From the NCBI RefSeq assembly GCF_900113545.1, contig NZ_FOPS01000015.1, positions 1-40,352 on the forward strand: 40,352 nucleotides of DNA, read 5' to 3'. Shown one piece after another: positions 784 through 37,311 of this stretch (its first letter is position 1; each line of letters begins with the position of its first letter). The notes below the pieces were generated by a model that did no database searches, was not told where the DNA came from, and saw only the letters and a program-made list of their open reading frames with translations. The translations under genes and the position numbers were made by a program. This DNA is from Neisseria elongata subsp. elongata (GTDB taxonomy: Bacteria > Pseudomonadota > Gammaproteobacteria > Burkholderiales > Neisseriaceae).

Positions 784-2178
784 ATGCCCCATCCCGATTT
801 CTCCCAAACCCTCTCCAAAGACCGCCACTTCCTGCAATCCGCCTTCAAAAATCCCAACAAATACGGCGGCTTGTCCAAAGTCGAAGAAAAATACCGAAAA
901 TCGCACGAAATCTTTTTGAAGCGTTTGGCCGCCTTGCCCAAACCCGAGTTCGACAACACCCTGCCCGTTCACGAGAAGCTCGAAGAAATCAAAAAAGCCA
1001 TTGCCGAAAATCAGGTAACGATTATTTGCGGCGAAACCGGTTCGGGCAAAACCACACAGTTGCCCAAGATTTGTTTGGAACTCGGACGCGGAGCGGCGGG
1101 GCTGATCGGGCATACCCAGCCGCGCCGTTTGGCCGCGCGCTCGGTGGCGGAGCGGATTGCCGAAGAGCTGAAATCGGAAATCGGCAGCGCGGTGGGCTAT
1201 AGGGTGCGCTTCACCGACCACACCTCGCGCGATGCCTGCGTCAAGCTGATGACCGACGGCATCCTGCTGGCGGAAACACAGACCGACCGTTATCTCGCCG
1301 CCTACGACACGATTATCATCGACGAAGCGCACGAACGCAGCCTGAACATCGACTTCCTGCTGGGCTACCTGAAACAGCTCCTGCCGCGCCGCCCCGATTT
1401 GAAAGTCATCATCACCTCGGCCACGATAGACGCAGAACGCTTTTCCCAACACTTCAACGGCGCGCCTGTACTGGAAGTGAGCGGGCGCACCTATCCCGTC
1501 GAAATCCTCTACCGCCCGCTGACCAGCAAAGACGAAGACGACGCGGAAGTGGAGCTGACCGACGCGATTGTCGATGCGGCGGACGAATTGGCGCGACACG
1601 GCGAAGGCGATATTTTGGTGTTCCTGCCGGGCGAACGCGAAATCCGCGAAGCCGCCGAAGCCCTGCGCAAATCCACGCTGCGCCGCAACGACGAAATCCT
1701 GCCCCTGTTCGCACGCCTGTCGCACGCCGAGCAGCACAAAATTTTCCACCCTTCAGGCGCGAAACGCCGCATCGTGTTAGCAACCAACGTCGCCGAAACC
1801 TCGCTCACCGTGCCGGGCATCAAATACGTCATCGACACCGGCCTGGCGCGCGTCAAACGCTATTCCGCACGGGCGAAAGTGGAGCAGCTTCATGTCGAAA
1901 AAATATCCCAAGCCGCCGCCCGCCAACGCTCCGGCCGCTGCGGACGCGTCTCCGCAGGCGTATGTATCCGACTGTTTTCAGAAGAAGATTTCAACAGCCG
2001 CACCGAATTCACCGACCCCGAAATCATCCGCAGCAACCTGGCCGCCGTCATCCTGCGCATGGCATCGCTGAACTTGGGCGACGTGGCGGCATTCCCGTTT
2101 TTGGAAATGCCTGACTCGCGGTATATCAATGACGGGTTTCAGGTGTTGTTGGAATTAGGGGCGGTGGAGGCCGTCTGA
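784..2178 (+). CDS. hrpA: ATP-dependent RNA helicase HrpA, N-terminal helicase core only (split gene)
   Basis: A 464-residue protein carrying both RecA-like domains of the DEAH-box helicase HrpA. Walker [10 protein letters not shown] is at residues 83-91, DEAH at 180-183, motif III SAT near 212-214, and motif [10 protein letters not shown] at 381-388. In E. coli HrpA unwinds RNA and resolves collided ribosomes. The family is normally about 1300 residues, with winged-helix, ratchet, OB and long C-terminal regions after the core. Here the frame ends at ELGAVEAV, where GAGGCCGTCTGA, a DUS, supplies the stop. The missing remainder, starting at the equivalent point (YRLTKLGEQ), is at 33268-37311 on the opposite strand. 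The ATPase core looks intact, but without the C-terminal domains normal function is doubtful. It is effectively half of a rearranged gene. Confidence 0.9.
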
Positions 2179-2208
2179 AAAGTGTTTGATGATGTTTTAG
2201 GAGCTACA

Positions 2209-2817
2209 ATGAAAATCCACTATCAATTGACAGCAGCAGAATTCAGCAAAGGCTCTTCCGACGGGCAAATACTCTTTATCAAGAAACAAAAGAAAGTGCC
2301 CGTCCTGCGTTGGGTAATAACCATCCTTCTGATTGCCTTCTATTCAATTTTTTTCGTTTTATTCTACAAGCAGCATAGCCTGGTTTTAAATTTATTGGCT
2401 GCGCTTGCCAATGGTTCATACGATTTTTCTGGCTATGGCGGTTATGAATATTTCCGCTTCGGCATTACATTTACTTTTTGGGGATTCGTCGTTGCTGGAC
2501 TTATTTTACTCGGACGGTTTTCTTTCCTGAGAGCTTCCCGAGGCATTTTTTCATTCGATAAGCTGTATCAGGATAAATCGCCGCTATTTTCCCAAAATAC
2601 AGTGGAACTTCGCGATAACGGTATTTATCACGAGACAGAAGCCTTCCAAAGTTTGCACTTCTACAAACATATTTGCAGCGTGGAAGAAACAAAGGATTGG
2701 ATTTTCATTTTTCTAGAAAAAAGTATTTTCAAATTCCTGCCCAAAAGTGCATTTCAAGATACACAACAAATACAGCACTTTATCAATCAGATTAAAGAAA
2801 ATATAAACAAAAAATAA
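2209..2817 (+). CDS. YcxB-like membrane protein
   Basis: A 202-residue protein with two membrane helices: about residues 34-56 (VLRWVITILLIAFYSIFFVL) and 92-113. A cytosolic C-terminal domain follows whose pattern (VELRDNGIYHETEAFQSLHF, then FKFLPKSAFQ) matches the YcxB-like domain. Function is unknown. I chose ATG 2209 because AGGAG (2199-2203) lies five bases upstream; a longer frame from GTG 2182 has no such site. It starts 30 bases after the hrpA fragment and is AT-richer than it. If an inversion split hrpA, this gene lies just inside the left breakpoint. Confidence 0.7.
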   Translation: MKIHYQLTAAEFSKGSSDGQILFIKKQKKVPVLRWVITILLIAFYSIFFVLFYKQHSLVLNLLAALANGSYDFSGYGGYEYFRFGITFTFWGFVVAGLILLGRFSFLRASRGIFSFDKLYQDKSPLFSQNTVELRDNGIYHETEAFQSLHFYKHICSVEETKDWIFIFLEKSIFKFLPKSAFQDTQQIQHFINQIKENINKK

Positions 2818-2873
2818 ATCTTTATTGAGTCTCTATTCAGCATCAAAAGCAGACTGATTGCCTGAAAATAAAA

Positions 2874-2903
2874 GGGGCTGTCCCAGATAACCAGGACAGC
2901 CCC
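2874..2903. terminator. palindrome GGGGCTGTCC/GGACAGCCCC, probable terminator or repeat end
   Basis: A perfect 10-base inverted repeat with a 10-base loop, between the convergent YcxB-like gene and purH. A near copy occurs at 37572-37602. It could be an ordinary terminator or the remnant end of a mobile element; from memory it resembles the ends of IS1016-type (IS1595 family) elements, unverified. Confidence 0.55.
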
Positions 2904-2975
2904 GAAATTTAAACTTCAGCGCAGTTTCAATCCGCCTGTTCTTCTTTTCAGACGGCCTTTCTATGCCTTTCCGAA

Positions 2976-4556
2976 TCAATGCCTAAAATGGCGCACGCCC
3001 GTTACTACCATCGCAATACCGTGTTCGTCCGCCGCGTCGAAGACTTCCTGATCGCGCATCGAGCCTGCGGGGTGGATGATGGCTTTGATGCCTTGCTCGG
3101 CAATCACGTCCACGCCGTCGCGGAAGGGGAAGAAAGCGTCGGAGGCGGCACACGCGCCGTTTAAGTCTAGACCTGCGTCCTGCGCTTTGCGGGCGGCGAT
3201 GCGGGTGCTGTCCACGCGGCTCATTTGGCCTGCGCCGATGCCGTAGGTTTGGCCGCCTTTGCCGAATACGATGGCGTTGGATTTGACGTATTTGGCGACG
3301 TTCCAGACAAACAGCAAATCGTTCCACTCCTGCTCGGTCGGTTGGCGTTTGGAGACGACTTTCAAATCGGCGCGGCTGATGCTGTGGATGTCAGGCGTTT
3401 GTACCAACAGTCCGCCGCCGACGCGTTTGAGTTCAAAGCGGTTCGCGCCTGCTTCCAAAGGCACTTCCAACACGCGCACGTTTTTCTTGGCGGCGGCGAT
3501 TTCGAGTGCTTCGGCGGTGAACTTCGGCGCCATCAAGACTTCCATAAATTGGTTGTCGGTAATTTGTTGCACGGTTGCGCCGTCTACTTCACGGTTGAAG
3601 GCGATGATGCCGCCGAACGCGCTGGTGGTGTCGGTGGCGTAGGCGAGTTTGTAGGCGGTCAATGTATCGGCTGCAACGGCGACGCCGCACGGATTGGCGT
3701 GTTTCACAATCACGCAGGCGGGCGCATCGAAGGATTTGACGGCTTCCCAAGCGGCATCGGCATCGGCGATGTTGTTGTACGACAATTCTTTGCCTTGCAG
3801 TTGTTTGTAGGCGGCGAGGCTGCCTGCGGCGGGGTACACATCGCGGTAGAACGCGGCGCGTTGGTGCGGGTTTTCGCCATAGCGCATGTCTTGCACTTTA
3901 ATCCAGCTTTGGTTGAACTGGCTGGGGAATTCGCCGATTTCGGGCGTGCCGCTCAAGACGTCGTCTGAAAGCGAGGTCAGGTAGTTGGAAATCATGCCGT
4001 CGTATTGGGCGGTGTGGCTGAACGCTTTGCGCGACAGGTTGAAGCGGGTTTTGTCGCTCAATGCGCCGCCGTTGGCTTCCATTTCGGCGGCGATGGCGGG
4101 GAAGTCGGCGGTGTCGGTAACGATGGCGACGTGTTTCCAGTTTTTCGCGGCGGAGCGCACCATAGTCGGGCCGCCGATATCGATGTTTTCAATCGCGTCT
4201 TCCAGCGTGCAGTTTGGTTTGGCGATGGTGGCGGCGAAGGGGTAAAGGTTGACGCAAACGAGGTCGATGTTGCCGATGCCGTGTTCTTCCATCTTGGCGA
4301 CGTGTTCGCCCAAATCACGCCGACCCAAAATACCGCCGTGGATTTTCGGATGCAGCGTTTTCACGCGACCGTCGAGCATTTCGGGGAAACCGGTATAGTC
4401 GGCGACTTCAATCACGGGAACGCCCGCATCGGCAAGCAGCTTCGCCGTGCCGCCGGTGGAGAGGATTTCGACACCGAGTTTGTGCAGGGTTTGGGCAAAT
4501 TCGACTGCGCCGTTTTTGTCGGACAGGCTGATCAGGGCGCGTTTGATGGAAGGCAT
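2976..4556 (-). CDS. purH: bifunctional AICAR transformylase / IMP cyclohydrolase PurH
   Basis: Catalyses the last two steps of purine synthesis: formylation of AICAR with 10-formyl-THF, then ring closure to IMP. The 526-residue length is normal. Residues 1-150 form the MGS-like IMP cyclohydrolase domain (begins [20 protein letters not shown], contains [11 protein letters not shown] and [14 protein letters not shown]). The rest is the transformylase domain, with the catalytic Lys-His pair in [10 protein letters not shown] and the C-terminal [11 protein letters not shown] segment. The start ATG 4556 is preceded by AAGGAAT. A single DUS lies just past the stop (about 2948). It is monocistronic as far as visible. 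Confidence 0.97.
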
Positions 4557-4668
4557 GGGGATTCCTTTTTTTGAAGGTTTAATCGATACACGCTGCTAGC
4601 GCAAAAATGAAACAAAATTTGATGAGATGTTTAGCTCCGATGGCGTTCTCTTGGGCAATTCAATAAAT

Positions 4669-5148
4669 TTATACCTTGCGGCAAGCAATATCTTGTCTAT
4701 CACCCTGCATACGGACGCTTAGGCTGTCATTCCCGATTTTTTTAACCTGCATTTGCCATTTATCTGATTTACCAATGTCGTTTCTCATCTGGGCAAACAT
4801 TTCCTTATCCACTTTACGCCACGGGATGGTGCGAATTTTAGCTGTGCTATGTTGTCTTTGAACATCGGTGGTTTTAACGTTCAAACCAATTTTTTCTCCA
4901 TTCAACGTCCAAGTGCCATCTGTAAACACCCGATAAACTAGGGTTTCATCATCAGGTGAAGGAATATTCAAATCCACAATCACGCTTACTTTTTGCTCAC
5001 TGCCAAAAGTAAACGTCATCGGCGTTTTATTAGTGGCAGCGCACTGCCATTTACCGAGCAGTTGCGCTTCTTGAACAACAACAGGTTTTGCCAACACAGG
5101 CGCAGCAGCAAAGGCAGCAAGAAGAAAAATCAGGTGTTTTTTTTGCAT
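4669..5148 (-). CDS. secreted protein of unknown function
   Basis: A 159-residue protein with a clear Sec signal peptide (MQKKHLIFLLAAFAAAPVLA, cleavage near residue 20). The mature part has a LLGKWQC motif near its start and alternating strand-like segments, resembling small lipocalin-like or stress-type periplasmic proteins in which the G-x-W motif opens the barrel; this is a weak analogy. Two cysteines remain in the mature chain (LGKWQC and DIAC), which could form a disulfide joining the ends. The gene is AT-richer than purH downstream. I do not recognise the family. Confidence 0.7.
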   Translation of the reverse strand: MQKKHLIFLLAAFAAAPVLAKPVVVQEAQLLGKWQCAATNKTPMTFTFGSEQKVSVIVDLNIPSPDDETLVYRVFTDGTWTLNGEKIGLNVKTTDVQRQHSTAKIRTIPWRKVDKEMFAQMRNDIGKSDKWQMQVKKIGNDSLSVRMQGDRQDIACRKV

Positions 5149-5455
5149 AACAGTTTCTTTCTATAAAATCGGGAGTGAATAAGCTACTTTCTTAGTTTTC
5201 CAACTGCCTTATACAAGTTTGAAGACACTGGCGGTCAGTTTGACAGAATACGTCTTCAATCTTGGCAAAACATTATGGGATGAATTTTCAGGGCGGTATT
5301 ATCCTCTAGTTTCAGCTTTTTGGCTGCAGTTTTCAAACGACCTTTACTGCTTGAAAGCCTATTTCCTTGCCGTTTTCAATCAGTCTTTCACAAGGATTCC
5401 GTTTTCAATACGGAATGCGCGGTTTTAAGCGTTTTTCGACAGAAATCAACCTGCC
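5149..5455. other. AT-rich stretch without a convincing gene
   Basis: Upstream region of the secreted-protein gene. A plus-strand frame exists at 5219-5428 (TTG start, 69 codons), but it has no ribosome site, a biased composition and no recognisable motif. No DUS or RNA gene is visible here. Confidence 0.4.
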
Positions 5456-5721
5456 TCAATGTTGAACATTGAGCGGATAGCTTTTTGGCGCAACGTGCGT
5501 CTTGCCGTTGAAAGGAATCACATACTTCTGATTTTTATAACGCTTTCTACCATCCACCCCCTTCACCGTTACGCTTAATACCCATACACCTGAGGCTGAA
5601 GGACGGTTTTTATCAAAAGCAATTTTTGCATCGATGCTGGTATAGCAATCTTCACAATCACGTTTCTCCGCCCTTTGTATTCATCACAATTGCCATAATA
5701 GCGGAAGATGTTTCGGCGCAT
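5456..5721 (-). pseudogene. remnant of a small cysteine-containing protein gene, frameshifted
   Basis: On the minus strand an ATG at 5721 opens a frame encoding MRRNIFRYYGNCDEYKGRRN, which soon stops. The adjacent frame from about 5670 reads DCEDCYTSIDAKIAFDKN, then GVWVLSVTVKGVDGRKRYKN and ends VAPKSYPLNVQH at a TGA (5456-5458). Joining the frames with one indel gives a plausible protein of roughly 85 residues with several Cys, so I read this as a decayed gene. No family was recognised. The alternative is a short intact ORF with a start I could not identify. Confidence 0.4.
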
Positions 5722-5787
5722 ATTATCGGCCTTTTTCGGCGTTTATGCAGCATGATAGAACAGGAAATGTTTACAATTTTGCAAAAA

Positions 5788-5832
5788 GCCGTCTGAAAAA
5801 CATATAAACCGAGAAACGGTTTTTCAGACGGC
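5788..5832 (-). terminator. inverted DUS pair after the HAD gene
   Basis: GCCGTCTGAAAAAC (5788-5801) and GTTTTTCAGACGGC (5819-5832) form a 14-base stem. The stop codon of the HAD phosphatase gene (5824-5826) is inside the right arm. Confidence 0.8.
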
Positions 5833-6480
5833 CTCTTGCGCCCATGCGGCCAGCGCAGCCATATCGGGTGCGGCGCAATCGACGAAGGGCAAGAGATGGC
5901 TGCCGCTGCCGAACCAAACGGTTTTCATGCCCAGCTTTTTTGCGGCGGCGAGATTGTCGGCGGAATCGTCCACCATCACGCAGTCGGCCGGGTCGGCCTT
6001 CATGGCGGCGCATACGGTGAGGTAGGCCGCTTCGGCGGGTTTGTAGAGCAGGCCGAAATCGTCCGTGCCGAACAATGCGTCGAAGCAGTCGGACAAACCC
6101 AGTTCGGCCGCCAAGCCGCGCACATAAAACGACGGTGCGTTGGAAAATACGGCTTTACGCCCTTTCAGACGGCCTAGAACGTCTGCCGTGCCTTGCACGG
6201 GGCGGACTTTCGGCAGGATTTCGTCCATCGGGTGGCTGTGGCGCAGGAAGTCGGCGATGTCAGTTTCGGGATGGTGCAGCCGCAGCCCGGCCAACGTCGC
6301 GCCGTAGCGGTGCCAATAGTCGCGGCGCAGGTGGTCGGCTTCCGATTCGGTCAGCTTCAAATGCCGCATCAGGTAAGCGGTCATGCGGCGGTTGATCAGG
6401 TAGAAAATGCCTTCGTCGGCATGATGCAGCGTATTATCCAAGTCAAACAGCCAGACAGTTGTTTTCGGCTCTTTATTCAT
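5824..6480 (-). CDS. HAD-superfamily pyrimidine 5'-nucleotidase-like phosphatase
   Basis: A 218-residue haloacid-dehalogenase hydrolase. Motif I is WLFDLDNTLH (nucleophile Asp near residue 13), motif II the FSNAP segment near 117-121, motif III the Lys in YKPAEAAY, and motif IV MVDDSADNLAAA. The cap and overall pattern match the Sdt1/YjjG-type pyrimidine nucleotidase group, so the substrate is probably a small phosphorylated metabolite such as UMP; this is inferred from family only. Translation ends EAV with the DUS-derived stop GAGGCCGTCTGA. It is divergent from thiB with 52 bases between starts. Confidence 0.88.
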   Translation of the reverse strand: MNKEPKTTVWLFDLDNTLHHADEGIFYLINRRMTAYLMRHLKLTESEADHLRRDYWHRYGATLAGLRLHHPETDIADFLRHSHPMDEILPKVRPVQGTADVLGRLKGRKAVFSNAPSFYVRGLAAELGLSDCFDALFGTDDFGLLYKPAEAAYLTVCAAMKADPADCVMVDDSADNLAAAKKLGMKTVWFGSGSHLLPFVDCAAPDMAALAAWAQEAV

Positions 6481-6532
6481 ATCGTTTTCGGCGGTATCAT
6501 TACCGCGATTATAGCCAAAGGGAGATTATGGT

Positions 6533-7537
6533 ATGAAACGGATTTTACTTGCGGTGGCAACAGCCGCCCTTTTGATGCCTGCCGTACAGGCGCAGACGGA
6601 AGTCCGGCTGGCGGTGCACAAATCGTTCAGCCTGCCGAAAGACGCGTTTGCCGCCTTCGAGCGCGCCAACGATGCCAAAGTATCGGTGATTAAGGCGGGC
6701 AGCGGCAACGAATTGGTGAACAAGCTGGTATTGAGCCGCGCACAGCCGATTGCCGACGCGGTGTACGGCCTGGACAACACCACCGTGCTGAAAGCGAAAG
6801 AAGGCGGCATCCTCGCCGCCGCCCAACCGCCCTCGGCAGCCGTAACCGCCGCCCTGCCCCATGCGGCGGCGGTGGACACGGGCTACATTGCCGTCAACTA
6901 CGACAAAGCCTGGTTTGCCAAAAACAAACTGCCCCTGCCGCAGAGCCTCGAAGATTTGGCCAAACCGCAATATAAAGACCTGCTGGCCATGCCCAATCCC
7001 GGACTGTCCAGCACAGGTTTAGGCTTCCTGTTGGCCAACATCCAAGGCATGGGTGAGAAGCAGGCTTTCGACTGGTGGGCGAAAATGCGCGCCAACGGCG
7101 TGAAGGTAACAAAAGACTGGAGCGAAGCCTACTACACCGAATTCAGCCGCAACGGCGGCTCGCGCCCGCTGGTGGTGGGTTATGCTTCCAGCCCGGCGGC
7201 CGAAGTGCATTACGGCAAGGGCAAATTCGATACCCCGCCCACCGGCGTATTGTTCCTGAAAGGCGGCGTATTCCGCCAAGTGGAAGGCGCGGCGGTGCTC
7301 AACGGAGCGAAACAGCCCGCCTTGGCGGCCAAACTGGTGCAATACCTGCAAAGCGCGCCGGTGCAGAAAGCGGTACCGACCGAAATGTGGGTTTACCCCG
7401 CCGTGAAAAACACGCCGCTGCCCGACGTGTTCAAACACGCCCGCGCGCCGCAGCACAGCGACAACCCGTCTGAAGCGGCCATCGCGAAAAACCAACGCCG
7501 CTGGGTCAGCCAATGGATACGGGTAGTATTGAAATAA
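6533..7537 (+). CDS. thiB: thiamine ABC transporter substrate-binding protein ThiB
   Basis: A 334-residue periplasmic binding protein with signal peptide [20 protein letters not shown]. The mature N-terminus [20 protein letters not shown], the [15 protein letters not shown] segment and the [10 protein letters not shown] loop are typical of the thiamine/TPP-binding ThiB (TbpA) family. It captures thiamine compounds in the periplasm for the ThiPQ permease/ATPase. No thiP or thiQ is next to it; the following gene is pdxA, so the transporter's other parts must be elsewhere if present. The start is preceded by GGGAGA. An alternative is another member of the same solute-binding cluster (iron- or sulfate-type). 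Confidence 0.88.
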
Positions 7538-7556
7538 AATAACCGCCGCAGCGAAC

Positions 7557-7596
7557 AGGCCGTCTGAAAATCCGAAAACGGGGTTTCAGACGGCCT
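7557..7596 (+). terminator. inverted DUS pair between thiB and pdxA
   Basis: AGGCCGTCTGAAA (7557-7569) and TTTCAGACGGCCT (7584-7596), 20 bases after the thiB stop and 20 before the pdxA start. Confidence 0.8.
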
Positions 7597-7616
7597 CAAC
7601 CCATCAAGGAACCATC

Positions 7617-8612
7617 ATGCCCCTTCCCGTTATCGCCGTAACCGGCGGCGAACCTGCCGGCATCGGCGCCGACATCTGCCTCGACCTTGCCGCCGCCAAA
7701 CTGCCCTGTCGCCCCGTCGTCCTCGCCGACATCGGCCTGCTCCGCCAACGTGCGGCGCAGTTGGGCAAAACCGTCGCCCTGCGCGACTTTTCCTCCAATC
7801 TCCCGCCGCAGCCCGGCACGCTCGACGTTTGGCACATCCCGCTGGCCGCCCCGTGCGAGGCAGGCCGTCTGAACGCCGCCAACTCGCCCTATGTGCTGCA
7901 ACTGCTCGACACCGCCTATCAAGGCATTCAAAACGGTATGTTTGCCGCCATGACCACCGCCCCCCTGCACAAGGGCATCATCAACGACGCGGGCGCGGGC
8001 GGCGGATTTTTCAGCGGCCACACCGAATATCTGGCCGAAAAAAGCGGCACGCCCCGCGTCGTCATGATGCTGGCGGGCGGCGGCCTGCGCGTGGCATTGG
8101 CCACCACCCACCTGCCGCTGAAAGACGTGGCCGCCGCAATTACCCGCGAAAGCCTGCTGGAAACCGCCCGCATCCTGCACCGCGATTTACAGCACAAATT
8201 CGGCCTTGCGCACCCGCGCATCCTGGTTGCCGGCCTCAACCCGCACGCGGGCGAAGGCGGCCATTTGGGGCATGAGGAAAACGACGTCATCATCCCCGCG
8301 CTGGAAGAGATGCGCGCCGCCGGACTGGACATCCGAGGGCCGTATCCGGCCGACACGCTGTTTCAGCCGTTTATGCTCAAAGATGCCGATGCCGTGCTGG
8401 CGATGTATCACGACCAAGGCCTGCCGGTGTTGAAATACGCATCCTTCGGCCAAGGGGTGAACATCACGCTCGGCCTGCCCTTCATCCGCACTTCGGTAGA
8501 CCACGGCACGGCCCTCGATTTGGCCGGCACGGGCCGCGCCGACAGCGGCAGCCTGATGGCGGCCGTTCGGACGGCCTGCGAAATGGCGGCTGCCGGCTTG
8601 GCAGGGGATTAA
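7617..8612 (+). CDS. pdxA: 4-hydroxythreonine-4-phosphate dehydrogenase PdxA
   Basis: Oxidises 4-phosphohydroxy-L-threonine in the DXP-dependent pathway to pyridoxal phosphate, using NAD and a divalent metal. The 331-residue length is normal. It begins [20 protein letters not shown]. The metal-binding histidines occur in [22 protein letters not shown] and [19 protein letters not shown], followed by the conserved [17 protein letters not shown]. The start has AAGGA upstream. It is convergent with the DUF4124-like gene, with a shared DUS hairpin between them. Confidence 0.96.
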
Positions 8613-8665
8613 GCTGCCCCGATACCGCCTTATATCCGTTTGAAGCAAAGGCTTGCCCGCCAATG

Positions 8666-8712
8666 AAAAGGCCGTCTGAAAAACCGATTTTCAGGTTTTC
8701 AGACGGCCTTTT
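8666..8712. terminator. inverted DUS pair, bidirectional terminator
   Basis: AAAAGGCCGTCTGAAAA (8666-8682) and TTTTCAGACGGCCTTTT (8696-8712) between the convergent pdxA and DUF4124-like genes; T-runs are present on both strands. Confidence 0.85.
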
Positions 8713-8731
8713 CCATGGATTGCCATCGGAT

Positions 8732-9352: not shown

Positions 9353-9476
9353 GGTTGGATGTGCGTTTTGATAATGGGCGGGATTATAGCGGTCGCCGCG
9401 TAAATTTAGGTTTGGACGGTTTAAACACTGCAGCCGCTTTGGCAAACTTTTCAGACGGCCCGGCATCAGGACAAGC

Positions 9477-10043: not shown

Positions 10044-10057
10044 AATCAGGCTCCGAA

Positions 10058-19431: not shown

Positions 19432-19432
19432 A

Positions 19433-28374: not shown

Positions 28375-28432
28375 CCCTGTCTGACAGATTCACTTAATTT
28401 GCCAGTCCGGCCGTGAAACACACCATCACGCG

Positions 28433-28476
28433 AAAAGGCCGTCTGAAAACCGAAAATGGCTTTCAGACGGCCTTTT
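28433..28476 (+). terminator. inverted DUS pair after lysA
   Basis: AAAAGGCCGTCTGAAA (28433-28448) and TTTCAGACGGCCTTTT (28461-28476), followed by T. Confidence 0.85.
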
Positions 28477-28511
28477 TGATATTGGAAACGGAAACCCGCT
28501 TCCGAAAATCA

Positions 28512-28586
28512 TGGCCCCGCCGACAGGAATCGAACCTGTATTTTACGCTTAGGAGGCATACGTTCTATCCGTTGAACTACGGCGAG
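28512..28586 (-). tRNA. tRNA-Arg (anticodon CCT)
   Basis: Folds by eye on the minus strand. Acceptor arm CTCGCCG/CGGCGGG (one T-G pair). The D-arm region is GTTCAACGGATAGAAC. The anticodon stem TATGC/GCGTA carries loop CTCCTAA, so the anticodon is CCT, reading AGG. The T-arm is ACAGG-TTCGATT-CCTGT. Discriminator G and an encoded CCA complete it. Confidence 0.93.
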
Positions 28587-28623
28587 GACTTAAAACTTAG
28601 AAAACAAAGCACAACGCTTAAAT

Positions 28624-29598: not shown

Positions 29599-29723
29599 GA
29601 CGGACTCGGCACGACAGACGGTTTTACAGAAAAACAAGCCCGTGATTATAGCATCAAAGGCCGTCTGAAAAAACACCGCAAACATCCCGCATCTCCGCCC
29701 GCATACCAAAACGCCGCCAAAGC

Positions 29724-29752
29724 TTGACAAAACAGCCCCTTAGCAATAGAAT
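29724..29752 (+). promoter_or_regulatory. promoter of rplU-rpmA
   Basis: TTGACA (29724-29729), a 17-base spacer and TAGAAT (29747-29752): a near-consensus sigma-70 promoter, with about 55 bases of leader before rplU. Confidence 0.85.
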
Positions 29753-29813
29753 GCCCCGTTTCGCGCATGGTGCGCGGAATTTTCTTTAAACCAAAATCCT
29801 TATGGAGTTGAGT

Positions 29814-30122
29814 ATGTACGCGGTCGTAAAAACCGGCGGCAAACAATATAAAGTTTCCGTTGGCGAAAAATTGAAAGTAGAACAGATACCTGCCGAACTC
29901 GACAGCCAAATCGAACTGACCGAAGTTCTGATGATTGCTGACGGCGAGTCTGTAAAAGTAGGCGCTCCCTTTATCGAGGGCGCGAAAGTAACGGCAAAAG
30001 TAGTTGCCCACGGTCGCGGCGAAAAAATCCGCATCTTCAAAATGCGCCGCCGCAAACACTACCAAAAACGCCAAGGCCACCGCCAGAATTTCACCCAAAT
30101 CGAAATCGTGGCAATCGCCTAA
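29814..30122 (+). CDS. rplU: 50S ribosomal protein L21
   Basis: A 102-residue L21: [20 protein letters not shown] at the start, [20 protein letters not shown] in the middle and the [20 protein letters not shown] signature at the end. ATG 29814 is preceded by GGAG and matches family length; an upstream in-frame ATG (29802) adds four residues absent from the family. First gene of rplU-rpmA. Confidence 0.97.
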
Positions 30123-30147
30123 TTTTTAAAACTTAGGAGTATTACAA

Positions 30148-30420
30148 ATGGCAAGTAAAAAAGCAGGCGGTAGCACCCGCAACGGTCGCGATTCAGAAGC
30201 CAAACGCTTGGGCGTAAAAGCCTACGGCAACGAACTGATTCCCGCAGGTTCCATCATCGTCCGCCAACGCGGCACCAAATTCCACGCCGGCGACAACGTA
30301 GGCATGGGCAAAGACCACACCCTGTTCGCCAAAGTGGACGGCTATGTTGAATTCGCGGTTAAAGGCCGTCTGAACCGCAAAACCGTCAGCGTCCGCCCCT
30401 ACACCGGCGCAGAAGAATAA
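30148..30420 (+). CDS. rpmA: 50S ribosomal protein L27
   Basis: A 90-residue L27 whose N-terminus reaches the peptidyl transferase centre: [20 protein letters not shown], then [20 protein letters not shown]. It lies 25 bases after rplU with an AGGAG site, and is followed by a T-tailed hairpin. Confidence 0.97.
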
Positions 30421-30449
30421 ACAGACGTTTATCCTAACGCAACCAAAAG

Positions 30450-30472
30450 CCCGCCTTATCAGGCGGGTTTTT
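30450..30472 (+). terminator. terminator of rplU-rpmA
   Basis: CCCGCCT (30450-30456) and AGGCGGG (30461-30467) followed by TTTTT, 30 bases past the rpmA stop. Confidence 0.9.
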
Positions 30473-30638
30473 ATATTTGGCATGACCTCTCCCCTTTCAA
30501 TTCAACTGCCCGACAAGCAACGATGCCATCAGCAAAGGTAAACAGAATGAGACCATATCAACCAATACACAATGCACCTGATGAAGTGAAAACAATAACA
30601 CCAATCTTGATGGATTAGATTTGTGATACCCGAACAAA

Positions 30639-30679
30639 AGGCCGTCTGAAAGATTCCATAGGGATGTTTCAGACGGCCT
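30639..30679. terminator. inverted DUS pair
   Basis: AGGCCGTCTGAAA (30639-30651) and TTTCAGACGGCCT (30667-30679), just beyond the 3' side of the SWIM-domain remnant. The 150 bases to its left (30480-30630) hold nothing recognisable. Confidence 0.8.
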
Positions 30680-30697
30680 CTATCATTGGAATAAAAA

Positions 30698-31140
30698 CTA
30701 CAGCTTACTGAACCCCAAATCGGCGGCTTCATGGCAATCATAATATCCGGGTTCGGGAAAAGATTTTAGAGAGTTGCTGCCAATACGGATTGCCGCCCTT
30801 TTTAGGCTGTTGCGTGTCGGGTTTGTCAGGCTGCTCGTCCGGCGTTTGGGCGCGCACCACGGTATCACAACGCCGCCATATGCTTGCACGCACCGCCATA
30901 AGGACAATCGCAGCCCCCGTCCTTAATGTGCAAATCACTATCCAGCTTCAGCCATACCGAATAGTTTTCCGAACCGAACACCTCCGCCCGATAACGCCCG
31001 GCGGAAGTTTTTTGGACATCGCGAACCTTGCCCTGCTGGAAATACAGCAGTCCGCGTTCGGCGATGTGGGGCGGAAATAGGCGGGGTAGGTAGATACCAG
31101 ATATGGTTTGCTTCCAATAAGTTGTTGAAACATGGGGAGT
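30698..31140 (-). pseudogene. remnant of a SWIM zinc-finger protein gene
   Basis: On the minus strand, one frame from about 31140 to 30867 reads PHIAERGLLYFQQGKVRDVQ, then GRYRAEVFGSENYSVWLKLD and GGCDCPYGGACKHMAAL before a TGA. The CxCx(n)CxH pattern is a SWIM zinc finger, found in Mod5/helicase-associated SWIM proteins. The frame has no start codon: two stop codons (TAG TAA) lie upstream near 31143-31148. After the stop, a shifted frame continues RAQTPDEQPDKPDTQQPKKG and ends near 30738. The gene has therefore lost its start, suffered a frameshift and kept only a piece. SWIM proteins are usually much longer. Confidence 0.7.
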
Positions 31141-31203
31141 TTACTAGTTCGGGCGACGTTTGGGGAGAGGGTGGTGGGAAGATTTGTTTAGCAAAAGGGC
31201 AAG

Positions 31204-31235
31204 AGGTCGTCTGAAAATTTGGTTTCAGACGACCT
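31204..31235 (-). terminator. inverted pair of variant DUS (AGGTCGTCTGAA dialect)
   Basis: AGGTCGTCTGAAA (31204-31216) and TTTCAGACGACCT (31223-31235), downstream of the malic enzyme gene. The T in place of C is the dialect associated with the N. mucosa/sicca group, unlike the dominant AGGCCGTCTGAA of this window. Confidence 0.75.
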
Positions 31236-31288
31236 TTTAGGTGCTTGAAAGGAGACGATAATTTATTTGGAATGCAATGATTGGATAA

Positions 31289-32926
31289 TCAGCGGTATAC
31301 AGGCTGCCACATCACATCCTGCACGGCCTGTACCCAGTTTTCAGGCTGTTTGGTCGCTACACTGTCCTTGACCGCCTGTTTCGCCACGGCAACTGCCACG
31401 GTAGCGGATGACGCGCGCAGGTTGTCCACTGGCGGCAGCAGGGATGCGCCTGTATCTTGCGGGTTCACTTGTGATGCTACGGCTTCGGCGGCGGCAAGTA
31501 GCATACCATCGGTAACTTCTTTCGCGCCAGAAACGATAACGCCCAAGCCCAGGCCTGGATAAAGCATGGCGTTGTTGGCTTGTCCAATGTGGTAGTTCAC
31601 GCTTTTATAAGGAACGGGCGGAACGGGTATGCCGACGGAAATTAACGCTTTACCGTCCGACCATTGAACCGCGTCGGCAGGCATGACTTCGATTTTCTCC
31701 GTCGGATTGGACAGCGGCAGCAAAATAGGTCGTTCAACGCCCGCACACAGGGCTTTTACCACATCTTCAGTAAACGCGCCGTGATCGGTGGATGTGCCGA
31801 TTAAAATGGTCGGTTTGACCTGTTTGACCACTTCCAACAAGCCGATTTTTCCATCGTTTTTCGTCCAGGAGGCAACTTCGGCAGCGGGGCGGGCGTATTC
31901 CTGCTGATAATCCGGCAGATTCGGCATATCGTCGGTAACCAAGCCATTGATGTCTATCAGCCATACGCGTTTCTTGGCTTCTTCGCGGGAGAGTCCGTCG
32001 CGCTGCATGGCCGCGCTGATTTGGTCTGCCATGCCTGTTCCCGCCGTACCCGCTCCATAAACAACCAAACGCTGTTCGGCAAAATCCTGTTTGGTTACTT
32101 TCAAACCCGAAAACACGGCCGCCATGACAATTGCGCCCGTGCCCTGCATATCGTCGTTGAAAATACGGTAGCGTTCGCGGTTTTCCACCAAAATGCGGCG
32201 CGCGTTGGACGGGCCAAAATCTTCAAAGTGCAGCAATGCATTCGGGAACAGCTCTGCCGCTGTTTTCAAGTATGCAGCAATCAGTGCGTCGTAGCGTTCG
32301 CCGCGCACGCGGGCGTGGCGGTTGCCGAGGTAGGCGGGGTCGTTGAGCAAGGCTTCGTTGTCTGTACCAACATCAAGATTGACGGCAATGGTGCGCGCTG
32401 GATCGATGCCTGCGGCAGCGGTGTAAACCGCCAGTTTGCCGACGGAAATATCCGTACCATTCACGCCCCAGTCGCCGATGCCGAGTATTTCTTCCGCGTC
32501 CGACACCACAATCAAATCCACATCGTCCGCACCCAGCCCCAAAGATTCAAGGGATTCGCGAATGGCTTCGGGGTGGTTGATATCCAAATACACCGCGCGC
32601 GAACGGCGGTAGTCACGGCTCCATTTCTTAATTGCTTCGCCTACGGTCGGGTCGTACACAATCGGCAGCATCTCCGCCAAATGGTCGGTCAGCAGTTTGT
32701 AATACAGCACTTCGTTGCGGTTGTGCAGCTGGTCGAGAAAAATATATTTTTCAATATTTTCGGCATATGAAGCGTATTGGCGGTAGGCGCGTACGGCTTG
32801 TTGGTCAAGCGTTTCCACCGCTGCGGGCAGGCGGCCGATTAGGCCGTATTTCTTACGCTCTTCAACGGTAAACGCCGTGTCTTTGTTGGTCAGCGGGTTT
32901 TGCAGGATTTCAGGGATGTCGCTCAT
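31289..32926 (-). CDS. NAD-dependent malic enzyme
   Basis: A 545-residue enzyme converting malate to pyruvate and CO2. Motifs: YDPTVGEAIKKWS, ISVGKLAVYTAAAGIDPART (lysine region), LHFEDFGPSNARRIL and RIFNDDMQGTGAIV (metal site), the NAD-binding LVVYGAGTAGTGMADQI, and PLSNPTEKIEVMPADAVQWS. It is of the large maeA/sfcA class, without the C-terminal phosphotransacetylase domain of MaeB. ATG 32926 has TAGGAG upstream, better than the longer frame to 32968. Its terminator uses a foreign DUS dialect, suggesting it arrived with the neighbouring DNA. Confidence 0.93.
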   Translation of the reverse strand: MSDIPEILQNPLTNKDTAFTVEERKKYGLIGRLPAAVETLDQQAVRAYRQYASYAENIEKYIFLDQLHNRNEVLYYKLLTDHLAEMLPIVYDPTVGEAIKKWSRDYRRSRAVYLDINHPEAIRESLESLGLGADDVDLIVVSDAEEILGIGDWGVNGTDISVGKLAVYTAAAGIDPARTIAVNLDVGTDNEALLNDPAYLGNRHARVRGERYDALIAAYLKTAAELFPNALLHFEDFGPSNARRILVENRERYRIFNDDMQGTGAIVMAAVFSGLKVTKQDFAEQRLVVYGAGTAGTGMADQISAAMQRDGLSREEAKKRVWLIDINGLVTDDMPNLPDYQQEYARPAAEVASWTKNDGKIGLLEVVKQVKPTILIGTSTDHGAFTEDVVKALCAGVERPILLPLSNPTEKIEVMPADAVQWSDGKALISVGIPVPPVPYKSVNYHIGQANNAMLYPGLGLGVIVSGAKEVTDGMLLAAAEAVASQVNPQDTGASLLPPVDNLRASSATVAVAVAKQAVKDSVATKQPENWVQAVQDVMWQPVYR

Positions 32927-33234
32927 GATGCAGTCTCCTATGAGGTGAGGTGGTTGGGGAATTCCCAATTCATTTTATACTCAATTTCATAAATTAGTAA
33001 ACAGATGAAAAATAAAGCGGAATAACGTACTTGGATATGAGAATACAGGTAAGCAATGACAAATCAGGTAAAAGAATATGAAAAAACGGTTGAATTTTTT
33101 GTACTCAAAATTACGTCTTACTTTCTGAAAACAAGAAAGGGGGTGCAGGCTGCTTTGGAATTGGTTAAAAAGGATAGTAGTTAGAAAGACCACATTCCAT
33201 GCATTATTTTTTGAAATATAAAATTTAAATGTTT
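32927..33234. other. AT-rich intergenic stretch
   Basis: A notably A+T-rich spacer between the malic enzyme and hrpA C-terminal genes. It contains the palindrome GGGAATTCCC near 32971 and one small frame (33056-33184, listed separately). No DUS or RNA gene is visible apart from the hairpin starting at 33235. Confidence 0.5.
33056..33184 (+). CDS. possible 42-residue protein
   Basis: ATG frame encoding MTNQVKEYEKTVEFFVLKIT, then SYFLKTRKGVQAALELVKKD. It could form a helical peptide with lysine-rich ends. A weak AGGTAA lies upstream. No family was recognised; it may be chance in AT-rich DNA or a remnant. Confidence 0.25.
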   Translation: MTNQVKEYEKTVEFFVLKITSYFLKTRKGVQAALELVKKDSS

Positions 33235-33264
33235 AAGGCTACCTGAAAATTTTCAGGTAGCCTT
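33235..33264 (-). terminator. perfect palindrome of an Eikenella-type DUS (AGGCTACCTGAA)
   Basis: AAGGCTACCTGAAAA (33235-33249) and TTTTCAGGTAGCCTT (33250-33264), no loop. It lies directly at the 3' end of the hrpA C-terminal gene. This dialect is the one associated with Eikenella rather than Neisseria. Confidence 0.8.
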
Positions 33265-33267
33265 CAT

Positions 33268-36200
33268 TTATTTCAACCTCTCCCACTCCTTCAACAACCT
33301 CTTCACCGACACCGGATACGGCGTCTTCAACTCCTGTGCAAACAGCGACACTCTCAATTCTTCAATCATCCATTTAAACGCGGCGAGGTCGTCTGAAACG
33401 GGTAGTCCTTGTTTCACTAAGCCGTCGGTTTTTTCCTGCCACATCTGTTCCAATTCTTGAATATCGGCTTCGCGGGCTGCGTCGCAGGCGGGGTTGCCGC
33501 TGTATTTTTCAAGGCGCAGGGTCATGGCTTTGAGGTAGATGGGCAGGCGCGGCCATTGTGCCCATGGAGTATGGCTGGCAAAGCCGGCAGCGAGTAGGGT
33601 TTGCAGGCGTTGGCGCAGGAGGTGGGTGAGCGGGTGTTTGCCGAGTTTGCCGTTCAGTTCGGCGTAGGCAGCGGCGGTTTCCTGCAGGTAGCGGCTGAGG
33701 GATTCTTTGACGGCGGGCAGGCGGCTGCGGGCGCGTTTGATTTGTTCTTTGAAGGCTTTTTCGTTGCGCGGCAGCTCGTCTTCGCCGATAAAGGCGCGGT
33801 CGCAGACGGCTTGGGTGAGGTCGTCGCGCAGGGTATCGGCGTTGATGTGTTTGAGCAACATGGCGGCTTGGGTGAAGCCTTGGATGCCTTTGTTCAGGTC
33901 TTTAACTTGTTCTTTTAGTTGTAGTTTCATGAGTTCGATGACGCCTAGCCTGTGGGCTTGTTCGGCGGCGGCAGATGTGTCGAACAGGCGCAGGGCGATG
34001 CGGCCGTCTTTTTCTTTTTGCAGGCCGAGGTAGCCGGTGAGCTGTTGTTTGCCGCGGGCGAATTTGATGGATTCGGGCAGGGTGCCGATGTCCCATGCGG
34101 TAACGTTGTCGCGCTCGAATTCTTGGGTGTTGTCGCGGAAGGTGGTGGCGGCAGCTTTGCCAAGTTGTTGTTTGATTTGGATTAAATCGCGCCCCATGGC
34201 TAATTCTTGCCCGCCGTCGTCGATGATGCGGAGGTTGAAATAGCAGTGTTCGGGCAGCCTGAACGCGGCCCATTCGTCTTGGTTGATTTGCTCCAGTATG
34301 CGGATGTCGCCTGCGGTTTTGGCGATGGCTTGGGCGAGCTGGGGCAGGATGGGGGCGTTGCGGTCGGGGTTTTGGCTTAAAAATTGGGTGATGAATTCGG
34401 GCACGGGCACGCAGATGCGGCGGATTTGTTTGGGCAGTATTTTGATTTGTAACTGAATTTTTTCGCGTATCATGCCGGGCACGAGCCATTCGAGGGCGGC
34501 GGGGCTGATGCGGTTGAGGACGGTGAGCGGCAGGGTGAGGGTAACGCCGTCGAGCGGGTGGTGCGGCTCGAAGCGGTAGCTGAGTTTGAATTTGCCGTCT
34601 GCGGTTTGCCAGTGTTTGGGGAATTGTTCTTCGGTGATGTGCGCGGCGGCGTGCTGCATGAGGTCGTCGCGGCTGAGGAACAACAGGCGCGGGTTGTCGC
34701 GCTCGGCGGTTTTGAGCCAGGCTTGGAAGGTGCGGATGTCGGCGAGGGGTTTTTCAGACGGCGTTTGGGGTTTCAGGCTGCCTGAAAGGCGTGTAGGTCG
34801 GATACTCGTATCCGACGTTTGTGCAGCGTCAAAAGTTTTGTCGGATTCAAGAATCCGACCTACGGTTTCAGGCTGCTTTTGGGCATGGTTTGCCTGACGA
34901 ACCATGCGGTAATTGGTCAAAACCAAGCCGTTGCGCGGGATTTGGTTTTCGTGTTGCCGCACAAAGCCTTGTTTTTGGAAAAATGCCGATGCGGCTTTGG
35001 ACACGTCTGCCGTTATGGTTTTGCCGCTGTCTGCCGATGGCAAAACGGCATTCAGCAGCGCGGTGGCAATACCTTGCCGCTGGTGGCTCGGGTCGGTAAA
35101 GAGACAGTTTAGGTGGCTTTGTTCGGGCTGGTATTCAATAAAACCGAGCATGCGCCCGTTATGCGTTGCCACGCGGACATTACCGCCGTCAATGCGTTTT
35201 TGCCAGAAATCGGCATTGTCCGCGCCTTGCAGCCATGCGTTTTTTTCCTGCTCGCTGTAATGGCTGTTTGAAATATGTTTGACGGCGCGGCGGAATAATT
35301 CGGCAACGGCGGTGGCATCGCTAGTTGTGGCGGGGCGGATATGGGGTTTCAGGCTGCCTTTGAGGTCGTCTGAAACGCATGTAGGTCGGATTCTTGAATC
35401 CGACGTTTGTGCAGCGTCAAAAGTTTTGTCGGATTCAAGAATCCGACCTACGGTTTCAGGCTGCTTTTGGGCGTTTTGTTGGGTCGCGACCCAACCTACT
35501 TTGTTTTCAGACGGCGTTTGGGCTTCAGGTAGACGGCGCGACATGGCAATCAGGCGGGCTTCGCCGTCTTGTTCGGGTTCGTCGGTTTCGCCTGTTTCTT
35601 GGTAGCCGTTTTTCAGCCAGAAGGCGCGGCTTTGGGCGTTGCCTTCGGCGTAGCTTAGGATGATTTCGCGGTAGCCCAGCTCCGCCGCAACTGCCGCGAG
35701 TTTTTGCGCAATGGTGGTGCCGATGCCTGCGCCTTGGGCGGATTTGTCCACCATCAGCAAACCGAGCAACACGGTTTCTTTATCGGGATAGGCGAAGATG
35801 ATTTCCAGCGCGGCTTTCAGGCTGCCTTGCTGCCAGAAGCCGATGAAATGTTTGTTTTCGCGACGGGCAGCGGGCGGCAGGGCGGCAAGGCTGCGGGTGA
35901 GTTTGTCGCGCGTGAGCGGCTCGCCCAAGTGGCGGTAGTAGTCGGGCTGGCTTTGGCACAGGGCGTAGAGCGCGTCTAGGTCGGCGGCGGTAAGGGCGCG
36001 GGCGGTGAAGCCCTGCGGCGCGAGACGGGCGGCGTGGAACGGGGTTTCAGGCTGCCTTTGGGCTTTCAGGCTGCCTGAAAGTTCGTTTGCGCCATACACT
36101 CCGCCATCGCCCGCAACAAACACCGTTTCAGGCAGCCTTTGGTTGTAAAACTCAAACAAAATCTCATCGTCCACCAACACATCTTGGCGGCGCGATTTGT

Positions 36201-37311
36201 GTTCCAGCTCGGCGACTTCGCGGATCAGTTTTTGGTTGTGCACGAAAAACGGCGCGTTGAAACTGCCCATTTCTTGGGCGACCAATGCGCTGCGGATAAA
36301 GATTTCACGGGCTTCGGCGGGGGCGATTCTGCCGTAGGCGACGGGGCGGCGCGGCAGCACGGTCAGGCCATAAAGCGTAACGCGTTCGCTGGCGACGACT
36401 TCGCCGCGCTTTTGCTCCCAATGCGGCTCAAAATAATGATATTTCACCAAATGCGGCGCTTCCTGCTCAATCCATTCGGGCTGAATCGCCGCCACATCGC
36501 GCGCGTACAGGCGCGTGGTTTCGGTAAGCTCCGCCGCCATCACCCATTTGGGCTTGGATTTGAACAGCGCGGACGCGGGAAACAGATGAAAACGGCTGCC
36601 GCGCGCGCCCGTGTAATCGTTGCCGTCGGGCGATTTCATGCCGACATTGGCAATCAGCCCCGTGAGCAGGGCGCGGTGGATTTGCTCGTAACTGGCTTCT
36701 TTGGCGGCGCGGCGCTCGGCGCGGGCGTGTTTTTTGGCGAGCTCTTTTTGTTTCAGGCGGGCGGCAAGGTCGGCGGATTGGCTTGTAGGTCGGATACTGG
36801 TATCCGACATTTGGGCGGCACGGTTTTTGTCGGGTTCAGGTCGTCTGAACGCGCTTTCCTTGTCGGTCAAACCCATCTCAATCACAATCTGCGCCAACTG
36901 CGCGTGCAGCTCGCGCCATTCGCGCATCCGCAGGTGCGACAGGAAATACTGATGACACCACGCCACCATCTGGCGGTTCGACAAACCCTTGTCGCGCTCG
37001 CGTTGGAAGCTGTCCCAAATATTCAGGTAGGCGAGAAAATCCGACTGCTTGTCGGCAAAACGCTCATGCGCCTTGGCGGCGGCATCACGCGCTTCCAGCG
37101 GCCGTTCGCGCGGGTCTTGAATCGACAGCGCGGACGCAATCACCAATATTTCCGCCATGCAGTCGTGCTTCTTCGCCGCCAACAAAATGCGCGCGATTTT
37201 CGGGTCGATGGGCAGGCGCGCCATTTGTTCGCCGAGTTTGGTCAGGCGGTAGCGGGGAATATTGAATGAACGGGATTGCAGGCCGTCTGAAAGAATTTGG
37301 GTCTCTTGCAT
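33268..37311 (-). CDS. hrpA: HrpA C-terminal part with two nested GNAT acetyltransferase domains (split gene)
   Basis: A 1347-codon frame. It starts with the HrpA sequence that should follow the helicase core (NIPRYRLTKLGEQMARLPID, SALSIQDPRERPLEARDAAA), then LFPASALFKSKPKWVMAAEL and RRQDVLVDDEILFEFYNQRL. After residue about 395 two GNAT domains interrupt it. GNAT1 (about 433-592) has acetyl-CoA loop QGAGIGTTIAQKL; GNAT2 (about 656-804) has RQGIATALLNAV. HrpA resumes near residue 855 (IRTFQAWLKTAERDNPRLLF) and ends normally (FKWMIEELRVSLFAQEL). Linkers are translated palindromic repeats and DUS variants. The ATPase domains are missing and lie at 784-2178. ATG 37311 has no ribosome site and lies in breakpoint sequence, so expression is doubtful. 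Confidence 0.88.
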   Translation of the reverse strand: MQETQILSDGLQSRSFNIPRYRLTKLGEQMARLPIDPKIARILLAAKKHDCMAEILVIASALSIQDPRERPLEARDAAAKAHERFADKQSDFLAYLNIWDSFQRERDKGLSNRQMVAWCHQYFLSHLRMREWRELHAQLAQIVIEMGLTDKESAFRRPEPDKNRAAQMSDTSIRPTSQSADLAARLKQKELAKKHARAERRAAKEASYEQIHRALLTGLIANVGMKSPDGNDYTGARGSRFHLFPASALFKSKPKWVMAAELTETTRLYARDVAAIQPEWIEQEAPHLVKYHYFEPHWEQKRGEVVASERVTLYGLTVLPRRPVAYGRIAPAEAREIFIRSALVAQEMGSFNAPFFVHNQKLIREVAELEHKSRRQDVLVDDEILFEFYNQRLPETVFVAGDGGVYGANELSGSLKAQRQPETPFHAARLAPQGFTARALTAADLDALYALCQSQPDYYRHLGEPLTRDKLTRSLAALPPAARRENKHFIGFWQQGSLKAALEIIFAYPDKETVLLGLLMVDKSAQGAGIGTTIAQKLAAVAAELGYREIILSYAEGNAQSRAFWLKNGYQETGETDEPEQDGEARLIAMSRRLPEAQTPSENKVGWVATQQNAQKQPETVGRILESDKTFDAAQTSDSRIRPTCVSDDLKGSLKPHIRPATTSDATAVAELFRRAVKHISNSHYSEQEKNAWLQGADNADFWQKRIDGGNVRVATHNGRMLGFIEYQPEQSHLNCLFTDPSHQRQGIATALLNAVLPSADSGKTITADVSKAASAFFQKQGFVRQHENQIPRNGLVLTNYRMVRQANHAQKQPETVGRILESDKTFDAAQTSDTSIRPTRLSGSLKPQTPSEKPLADIRTFQAWLKTAERDNPRLLFLSRDDLMQHAAAHITEEQFPKHWQTADGKFKLSYRFEPHHPLDGVTLTLPLTVLNRISPAALEWLVPGMIREKIQLQIKILPKQIRRICVPVPEFITQFLSQNPDRNAPILPQLAQAIAKTAGDIRILEQINQDEWAAFRLPEHCYFNLRIIDDGGQELAMGRDLIQIKQQLGKAAATTFRDNTQEFERDNVTAWDIGTLPESIKFARGKQQLTGYLGLQKEKDGRIALRLFDTSAAAEQAHRLGVIELMKLQLKEQVKDLNKGIQGFTQAAMLLKHINADTLRDDLTQAVCDRAFIGEDELPRNEKAFKEQIKRARSRLPAVKESLSRYLQETAAAYAELNGKLGKHPLTHLLRQRLQTLLAAGFASHTPWAQWPRLPIYLKAMTLRLEKYSGNPACDAAREADIQELEQMWQEKTDGLVKQGLPVSDDLAAFKWMIEELRVSLFAQELKTPYPVSVKRLLKEWERLK
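34793..34863. repeat. 71-bp palindromic repeat, copy 1, inside hrpA
   Basis: Two inverted ends, each itself palindromic (GTAGGTCGGATACTCGTATC and GATTCAAGAATCCGACCTAC), around a core of about 20 bases. Nearly identical to the copy at 35381-35451. Read in frame on the minus strand as VGRILESDKTFDAAQTSDTS and onward. Flanked by an AGGCTGCCTGAA DUS (34775-34786). Resembles REP/MITE-like elements. Confidence 0.85.
35381..35451. repeat. 71-bp palindromic repeat, copy 2, inside hrpA
   Basis: Same structure as copy 1, differing at a few bases in the left end (TTCTTGAATC instead of TACTCGTATC). It lies in the linker between the two GNAT domains, is preceded by an AGGTCGTCTGAA DUS (35363-35374), and is also translated in frame. 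Confidence 0.85.
35478..35495. repeat. 18-bp perfect palindrome
   Basis: GTTGGGTCGCGACCCAAC, in the same GNAT1-GNAT2 linker, another small palindrome translated in frame. Confidence 0.7.
36785..36835. repeat. partial copy of the palindromic repeat
   Basis: One full palindromic end (GTAGGTCGGATACTGGTATC then CGAC) and a degenerate second end, followed by an AGGTCGTCTGAA DUS (36838-36849). Located inside the HrpA ratchet/OB region, translated as MSDTSIRPT. Confidence 0.65.

Follow-up and report, generated by a model that had tools for sequence, protein, structure and literature searches.

The minimal mobile elements (MMEs) of Neisseria were reportedly introduced by Saunders and Snyder in 2002 and by Snyder et al. 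in 2007. As defined in the part of PMC3082526 drawn on here, an MME holds differing whole-gene cassettes, restriction-modification genes among them, between conserved flanks, with apparent homologous recombination after transformation. Comparable sites are the core defence hotspots of Pseudomonas aeruginosa, where, in the sections of PMC10250203 used here, diverse anti-phage systems occupy a fixed site between conserved flanks with no single mobilising element. Here we analyse a locus that resembles both kinds of site, in the gene of the DEAH-box RNA helicase HrpA, starting from a 40,352-nucleotide stretch of Neisseria elongata subsp. elongata (G000:C16:1-40352, from a draft genome of 23 contigs; hereafter the window). 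Unlike in an MME, the flanks at this locus are the two halves of one gene, cut within a protein domain, and the cargo is rich in anti-phage systems; the differing cassettes were seen between species (33 of 33 split relatives), with one genome per species. Compared with the P. aeruginosa hotspots, with which it has the Mokosh system in common, the hrpA cassettes are smaller (1.0-10.5 kb versus a median of 26 kb for cDHS1), and the site lies inside and just after one gene across a genus, whereas the excerpted text places the P. aeruginosa hotspots between genes (PMC10250203). What is unusual here is a docking site inside a conserved gene that is maintained as two genes. We found no description of a split Neisseria hrpA in the literature by title and abstract start, a survey that largely leaves out subscription journals and the key MME papers, so that an earlier listing is possible. 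In many meningococcal papers the name hrpA belongs to a different protein, the secreted TpsA from a two-partner system (PMC12748263, in the portion of that source used).

A helicase gene split at one common point

The window holds one HrpA in two halves, hrpA-N and hrpA-C, about 31 kb apart on opposite strands. Their placement had been proposed in a preliminary description of this DNA, and is borne out by TIGR01967 and Pfam:

784..2178, plus strand: hrpA-N, with RecA1 and RecA2 followed by ~50 residues from the start of the winged-helix domain, its stop inside a DNA uptake sequence (DUS); Pfam helicase domains, TIGR01967
2168..2180, plus strand: DUS AGGCCGTCTGAAA, which provides the TGA stop of hrpA-N; read from the sequence
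33268..37311, minus strand: hrpA-C, with the end of the winged helix, HA2, OB, a variable linker with two GNAT domains, and DUF3418; Pfam, TIGR01967
34903..36000, minus strand: two GNAT acetyltransferase domains (35599-36000 and 34903-35265), in frame in the hrpA-C linker; Pfam

In a profile search, hrpA-N (464 residues) matched positions 17-466 of the 1284 in TIGR01967 and hrpA-C (1347 residues) matched the rest, and each half singly passed the cut-off of 722.75 bits (769.9 and 760.5). A second intact hrpA, which the preliminary description had considered, was not found in the window's own genome by searches with both halves; each gave a single match. The DUS, which is frequent here (59 ten-base copies), codes the ragged end of each half, from 2168 in hrpA-N and near 37280-37292 in hrpA-C. 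hrpA-N ends in EAV and a stop, and a new start and a leader lie on the hrpA-C side.

The two halves match TIGR01967 and the chains of the E. coli HrpA helicase in order; unlike that helicase, they would be two polypeptides, and some copies, the window's among them, carry GNAT domains in the linker. In alignments with E. coli HrpA (chains 6zwx and 9ggr; the structures comprise single chains and larger entries), the N-half ends at position 475 and the C-half begins at 482. In Prp2, the C-terminal domains start at a Pro-Glu right after RecA2 (PMC6038383, in the part of the text available). In the N-half of the window a similar motif, DPEIIR, begins 54 residues ahead of the C-terminus, and the cut therefore lies within the winged-helix domain, where it would correspond to the wing turn. 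Helicase motifs I, II and III are exact in 42 of 43 genomes, the 43rd being the intact gene of G034, which was extracted only in part; SAT is among the motif sequences present. The linker of hrpA-C ranges from 11 to 641 residues across genomes and contains GNAT domains in six of the 43 (G000, G004, G007, G018, G020, G026); the second GNAT domain of the window is common to G004 at 96% identity.

We searched 46 genus genomes with each half and read 42 oriented loci (L061-L102), which together with the window gave 43 genomes with a resolved locus. Left out were G031 and G033, where contig ends cut the locus, and G030, which is 68% complete and gave no hit. In 34 of the 43 (window included), hrpA is split at one common point. 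In each of the other 33 split genomes both halves sit on a single strand, 1.0-10.5 kb apart, and only the window has them on opposite strands. A gene that is found in two pieces in a single genome is therefore not necessarily damaged, since this can be its usual form across most of a genus. The split ends are alike: in 33 of 33 relatives the N-half stops 3-8 residues past LELGAV, and a short, variable leader, containing ATGCA in 28 of the 33, opens the C-half ahead of (R)YRL(T)(K/R)LGEQM. The remaining nine genomes (G002, G015, G017, G029, G032, G034, G036, G038, G043) have a single intact open reading frame (ORF) with different residues between LGAV and LTKLG, such as NEHNG in G036. The intact hrpA of G034 (L091) carries about 300 bp of extra in-frame sequence in the helicase core, near hrpA-N residue 220-230, and G038 (L095) has a small extra sequence at the same place.

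Outside named Neisseria, HrpA is continuous across the split point in 79 of 79 loci among the matches listed (80 loci). In a set of 37 genomes that represent the family's other genera and may overlap with the 79 loci, 33 are continuous, counted as open frames of at least 1290 residues plus G052 and G057, which were read individually. G048 and G082 share the split point and have the C-half downstream. In G049 the N-half stops there, and the 8.4 kb left before the contig ends contain no C-half; G073 (60% complete) gave no hrpA hit. The shared ends suggest that the split allele arose once. Split and intact states switch at least six times on a purH tree and at least four times on an hrpA-N tree, which makes transfer of alleles from lineage to lineage probable. 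G036 and G002 carry an intact gene inside split groups; their whole gene is closer to split relatives than to any other intact genome, which leaves the idea of recent imports from distant intact species unsupported.

Cassettes in the cut and after hrpA-C

In the 33 other split genomes, the gap from the N-half stop to the C-half match is 958-10516 bp (median 2317), and its GC content is lower than that of hrpA-N in every case (median 0.41 versus 0.58). The cassette ORFs, called mechanically at 70 residues or more, form 44 protein clusters, 33 of them singletons. Pfam was run on 38 of the 44 cluster representatives, and PADLOC on 46 proteins (42 representatives, three further members and the YcxB-like protein of the window), of which ten were read in detail. 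By our own assignment, recognised defence genes occur in 14 of the 33 cassettes. Type II restriction-modification is represented by HindVP-like (G005), LlaMI-like (G009), NgoBV (G016) and BpuJI-like (G024) genes and a D12 methyltransferase (G012). Other cassettes contain Mokosh MkoA and MkoB (G040, with G041 and G045 through cluster membership), PARIS AriAB (G006), DarT with a macro-domain partner (DarTG; G010), GmrSD (G021), the TIR effector of PADLOC candidate PDC-S35 (G001), a Septu-like pair PDC-M01A and B (G044), and an HTH gene adjoining a reverse transcriptase, nearest to retron type VI (G020). No defence function was assigned to the cassettes with Fic (G003) or PIN7 proteins (G011, and by cluster G018, G019 and G039). 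A sulfatase, whole or as a remnant, is found in the cassettes of 11 genomes, and further cargo comprises AAA_14-DUF4143 proteins, hydrolases, unknowns and, in G008, thioredoxin, SDR and OsmC genes. The cassettes of G007, G035 and G042 could be assigned to no known family. The AAA_14-DUF4143 gene stands next to differing defence cassettes in six genomes (L070, L066, L097, L098, L101, L102).

As a control, we took 46 ORFs from the upstream flank (42 nearest and four next), mechanical calls of which some are probably spurious and some mutual orthologues. At an equal threshold the 46 cassette proteins matched 352 PADLOC families and the flank ORFs none. With its consistent flanks and many anti-phage systems, the cut in hrpA fits the description of a core defence hotspot. 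Directly past hrpA-C there is a second variable site rich in defence genes. The first ORFs 3' of hrpA-C (40 of 42 genomes) matched 284 PADLOC families, including AriA, Old and GajA, and Pfam added ApaLI, HamA, RloB and GmrSD; close relatives that have upstream and farther downstream genes in common differ directly after hrpA-C.

Three cassettes contain end pieces of hrpA itself: an N-tail in G005, a C-head in G024, and a C-head followed by an N-tail in G045. The last of these (L102, 11544-11925) lies between two cassettes, as stacked cassette units would predict. Scars of this kind would be left by homologous recombination within hrpA that adds N-tail, cassette and C-head as a unit. Tail pieces of hrpA-C are also found downstream of hrpA-C in G012 and G028. 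In the window, hrpA-C is a mosaic: compared with the close group, positions 240-1190 of the C1 alignment average 43-87% identity, and the blocks on either side of this stretch (C1 120, C2 0) reach 94-96%. Together, the hrpA pieces in cassettes and the mosaic hrpA-C point to cassette exchange by homologous recombination. Among the 38 representatives analysed by Pfam there was no integrase and one RAYT-type Y1_Tnp. The DUS fits uptake by transformation.

Selection on the halves and proposed reassembly of HrpA

Purifying selection is strong on both halves, with at most mild relaxation of hrpA-N. In close split pairs (dS 0.05-0.3), the pairwise ratio of nonsynonymous to synonymous substitution rates (dN/dS, NG86) was 0.054 for the N-half (106 pairs), 0.070 for C1 (56) and 0.130 for C2 (87), with 0.060 for purH (62); we give no P value, because branches are shared among pairs and recombination occurs. 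The N-half is open in 33 of 33 other split genomes, and 32 of 34 C-halves read through to their ends without interruption, the automatic interruption flag in G012 and G028 being due to the extra tail pieces only. Both halves were found in each of the 34 split genomes with a resolved locus. This pattern differs from the relaxed selection and the interrupted frames of a pseudogene. Because dN/dS lies near that of purH on both halves, we infer reassembly of two chains as the simplest reading, and a two-polypeptide HrpA cut inside its winged-helix domain appears likeliest.

We consider it probable that exchangeable cassettes dock within hrpA of Neisseria, a conserved gene kept as two genes, the products of which reassemble. 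In such a scheme, an ancestral fission would have swapped a turn in the winged-helix domain for a stop and a new start. The halves would be made as separate polypeptides and, by way of the winged-helix domain that they share, come together as a working HrpA. Cassette swapping would depend on DUS-helped transformation and on homologous recombination in the arms formed by hrpA-N and hrpA-C, with no integrase involved. The cassette in the window is the YcxB-like gene, and a later rearrangement with a breakpoint in that cassette would have moved hrpA-C to the other strand, 31 kb away. Both halves are open and conserved in the window though separated, which fits a trans-assembled protein needing neither co-transcription nor adjacency. 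More tentatively, HrpA may be kept as two subunits because the cut is useful, as a permanent integrase-free port at which naturally competent cells would exchange phage-defence cassettes; selection on the halves might then guard the homology arms, and the window might be a natural experiment indicating that the two polypeptides need not share a transcript.

Several observations weigh against this explanation. The N-half stops inside a ten-base DUS in only 17 of the 33 other split genomes, so that a DUS is not required at that position, and a DUS lies within 200 bp before the C-half match in just 13 of 33. Nineteen of the 33 cassettes, and that of the window, have no recognised defence gene, and exchange was compared between species, with one genome each, rather than among strains within a species. 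At dS 0.7-1.5, dN/dS of the N-half was 0.128 in split versus 0.093 in intact pairs (C1 0.098 versus 0.087, C2 0.190 versus 0.228, purH 0.090 versus 0.079), and C1 of the window compared with split copies was higher still (0.161). Moreover, the C-halves of G022 and G042 are broken in DUF3418, both genomes being drafts or incomplete.

The slightly raised N-half ratio, the two broken C-halves and the long variable linker would all suit a split hrpA that is decaying as a pseudogene in most Neisseria, its conservation owed to short time or to import of fresh alleles and its cassettes merely tolerated. We regard this as unlikely, given dN/dS near that of purH over many pairs, the open frames of nearly all halves and the exact motifs I, II and III. 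It is likewise doubtful that the N-half and C-half have each taken on a function of their own rather than reassembling into one helicase. The halves can be unlinked, as the window shows, each is without part of the winged helix, and separate selection would yield equal dN/dS; each half, however, keeps the HrpA domains in order, and no split genome with a resolved locus has one half without the other. If, as we favour, the two genes are kept for one reassembled HrpA around an exchange site, then new Neisseria defence systems could be sought by a simple rule, reading between hrpA-N and hrpA-C and after hrpA-C. HrpA would also be a natural DEAH-box helicase cut within a domain, and a case of a conserved gene broken to form an insertion site with both pieces retained.

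The rearranged locus in the window

The sequence around and between the halves in the window contains the following further features:

2182..2817, plus strand: YcxB-like cassette gene, GC content 0.37, probable ATG at 2209; PF14317, without a PADLOC match
2818..2873, no strand: left joint, with the breakpoint here or nearby, between the YcxB-like gene and the purH terminator
2874..2903, minus strand: terminator-like palindrome downstream of purH; from the sequence
30717..31086, minus strand: truncated, frame-broken remnant of a 501-residue gene, which is whole after hrpA-C and the second cassette in G007, G018, G023 and G026
31289..32968, minus strand: malic enzyme gene (maeB), in place of the second variable region; ORF, name taken from the preliminary description
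37312..37570, no strand: stretch of ~260 bp from the hrpA-C start to the pgpA-like terminator, containing the right joint; from the sequence
37571..37602, minus strand: terminator-like palindrome downstream of the pgpA-like gene, related to the copy at 2874..2903

The YcxB-like gene is present in one of the 46 genus genomes, the window's own, and in none of the 45 others. It is followed by purH on the other strand, and from 2945 onwards the sequence resembles that around purH in G021 and G004. From hrpA-C, the order is maeB, the remnant of the 501-residue gene and rpmA-rplU; in relatives it is N-half, cassette, C-half and second variable region, followed in G007, G018, G023 and G026 by the 501-residue gene. 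The malic enzyme gene has a strong match in nine of 45 other genus genomes and stands beside hrpA in none of the 42 loci. Among the matches listed for the 42 oriented loci, none falls in the stretch at 37312..37570. Since the halves lie on one strand at most 10.5 kb apart in all 33 others, the arrangement of the window is a later rearrangement, and a breakpoint between the hrpA halves, in the cassette, is well supported by the gene order. The truncated remnant implies at least one more break or deletion at the far side of the hrpA-C block; the remainder of the 501-residue gene was not found in the window genome.

The preliminary description had read the locus as a large inversion of 2170-37290 with one breakpoint in hrpA. 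A breakpoint between the halves stands, but the split is not its product. An inversion would be the natural way to place the C-half on the other strand; a single inversion of exactly this segment is not established. Flipping 2170-37290 was also held to restore a continuous gene with almost nothing missing, yet undoing the rearrangement would give N-half, cassette and C-half, still two genes, and intact relatives have other residues between LGAV and LTKLG. Nor do the halves end exactly at the joints, as had been thought: the YcxB-like gene and the ~260 bp intervene. The DUS noted at both ends is present, but belongs to the split alleles, being shared as a stop by about half of the other N-halves, and does not mark breakpoints. 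A comparison of synteny, proposed as a check, did reveal continuous genes in nine genomes, but 33 relatives are split. purH and ispB are arranged differently in relatives, and gene order in the genus is too shuffled for an ancestral order to be recovered from the pgpA-like gene, purH, maeB and ispB; G004 has purH on the hrpA strand at a distance of 18 kb, though with different genes in between.

An assembly error might have produced the opposite strands, as the genome is a draft and related terminator-like palindromes lie at both joints. This we find improbable, since the palindromes differ in sequence and are ~30 bp long, and the DUS is shorter still, so that in our judgement they are unlikely to mislead an assembler. 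It is very improbable that a recent 35-kb inversion at a DUS severed an intact hrpA and left fragments: the opposite strands, the DUS at both ends and an arrangement unlike that of other split genomes would agree with it, but the same ends occur in 33 genomes without the inversion, which refutes it as the cause of the split, and a cassette gene and a spacer separate the halves from the joints. A programmed invertible element controlling hrpA is hardly credible in spite of the opposite strands and the related palindromes at both ends, for the joints show DUS and palindromes that look like the ordinary terminators expected after purH and after the pgpA-like gene, and no recombinase was recognised by eye among the window ORFs, with no search aimed at recombinases made. 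The palindrome motif has four copies in the genome; read as terminators, the palindromes are no longer needed as an inversion site, though they might still serve in recombination.

Next to the right joint, the pgpA-like gene (37618-38121) is strongly diverged, its best genus match being 66% (G004), with ~50% in most others. In G024, purH and ispB are doubled with equal spacing near both contig ends (G024:C1:2657-23767 and 2184925-2206071), perhaps a terminal assembly overlap. Lastly, the contig start at 1-342 of the window resembles an insertion sequence, which we take to be IS5/IS1106-like, and is 90% identical to a stretch near hrpA in G041.

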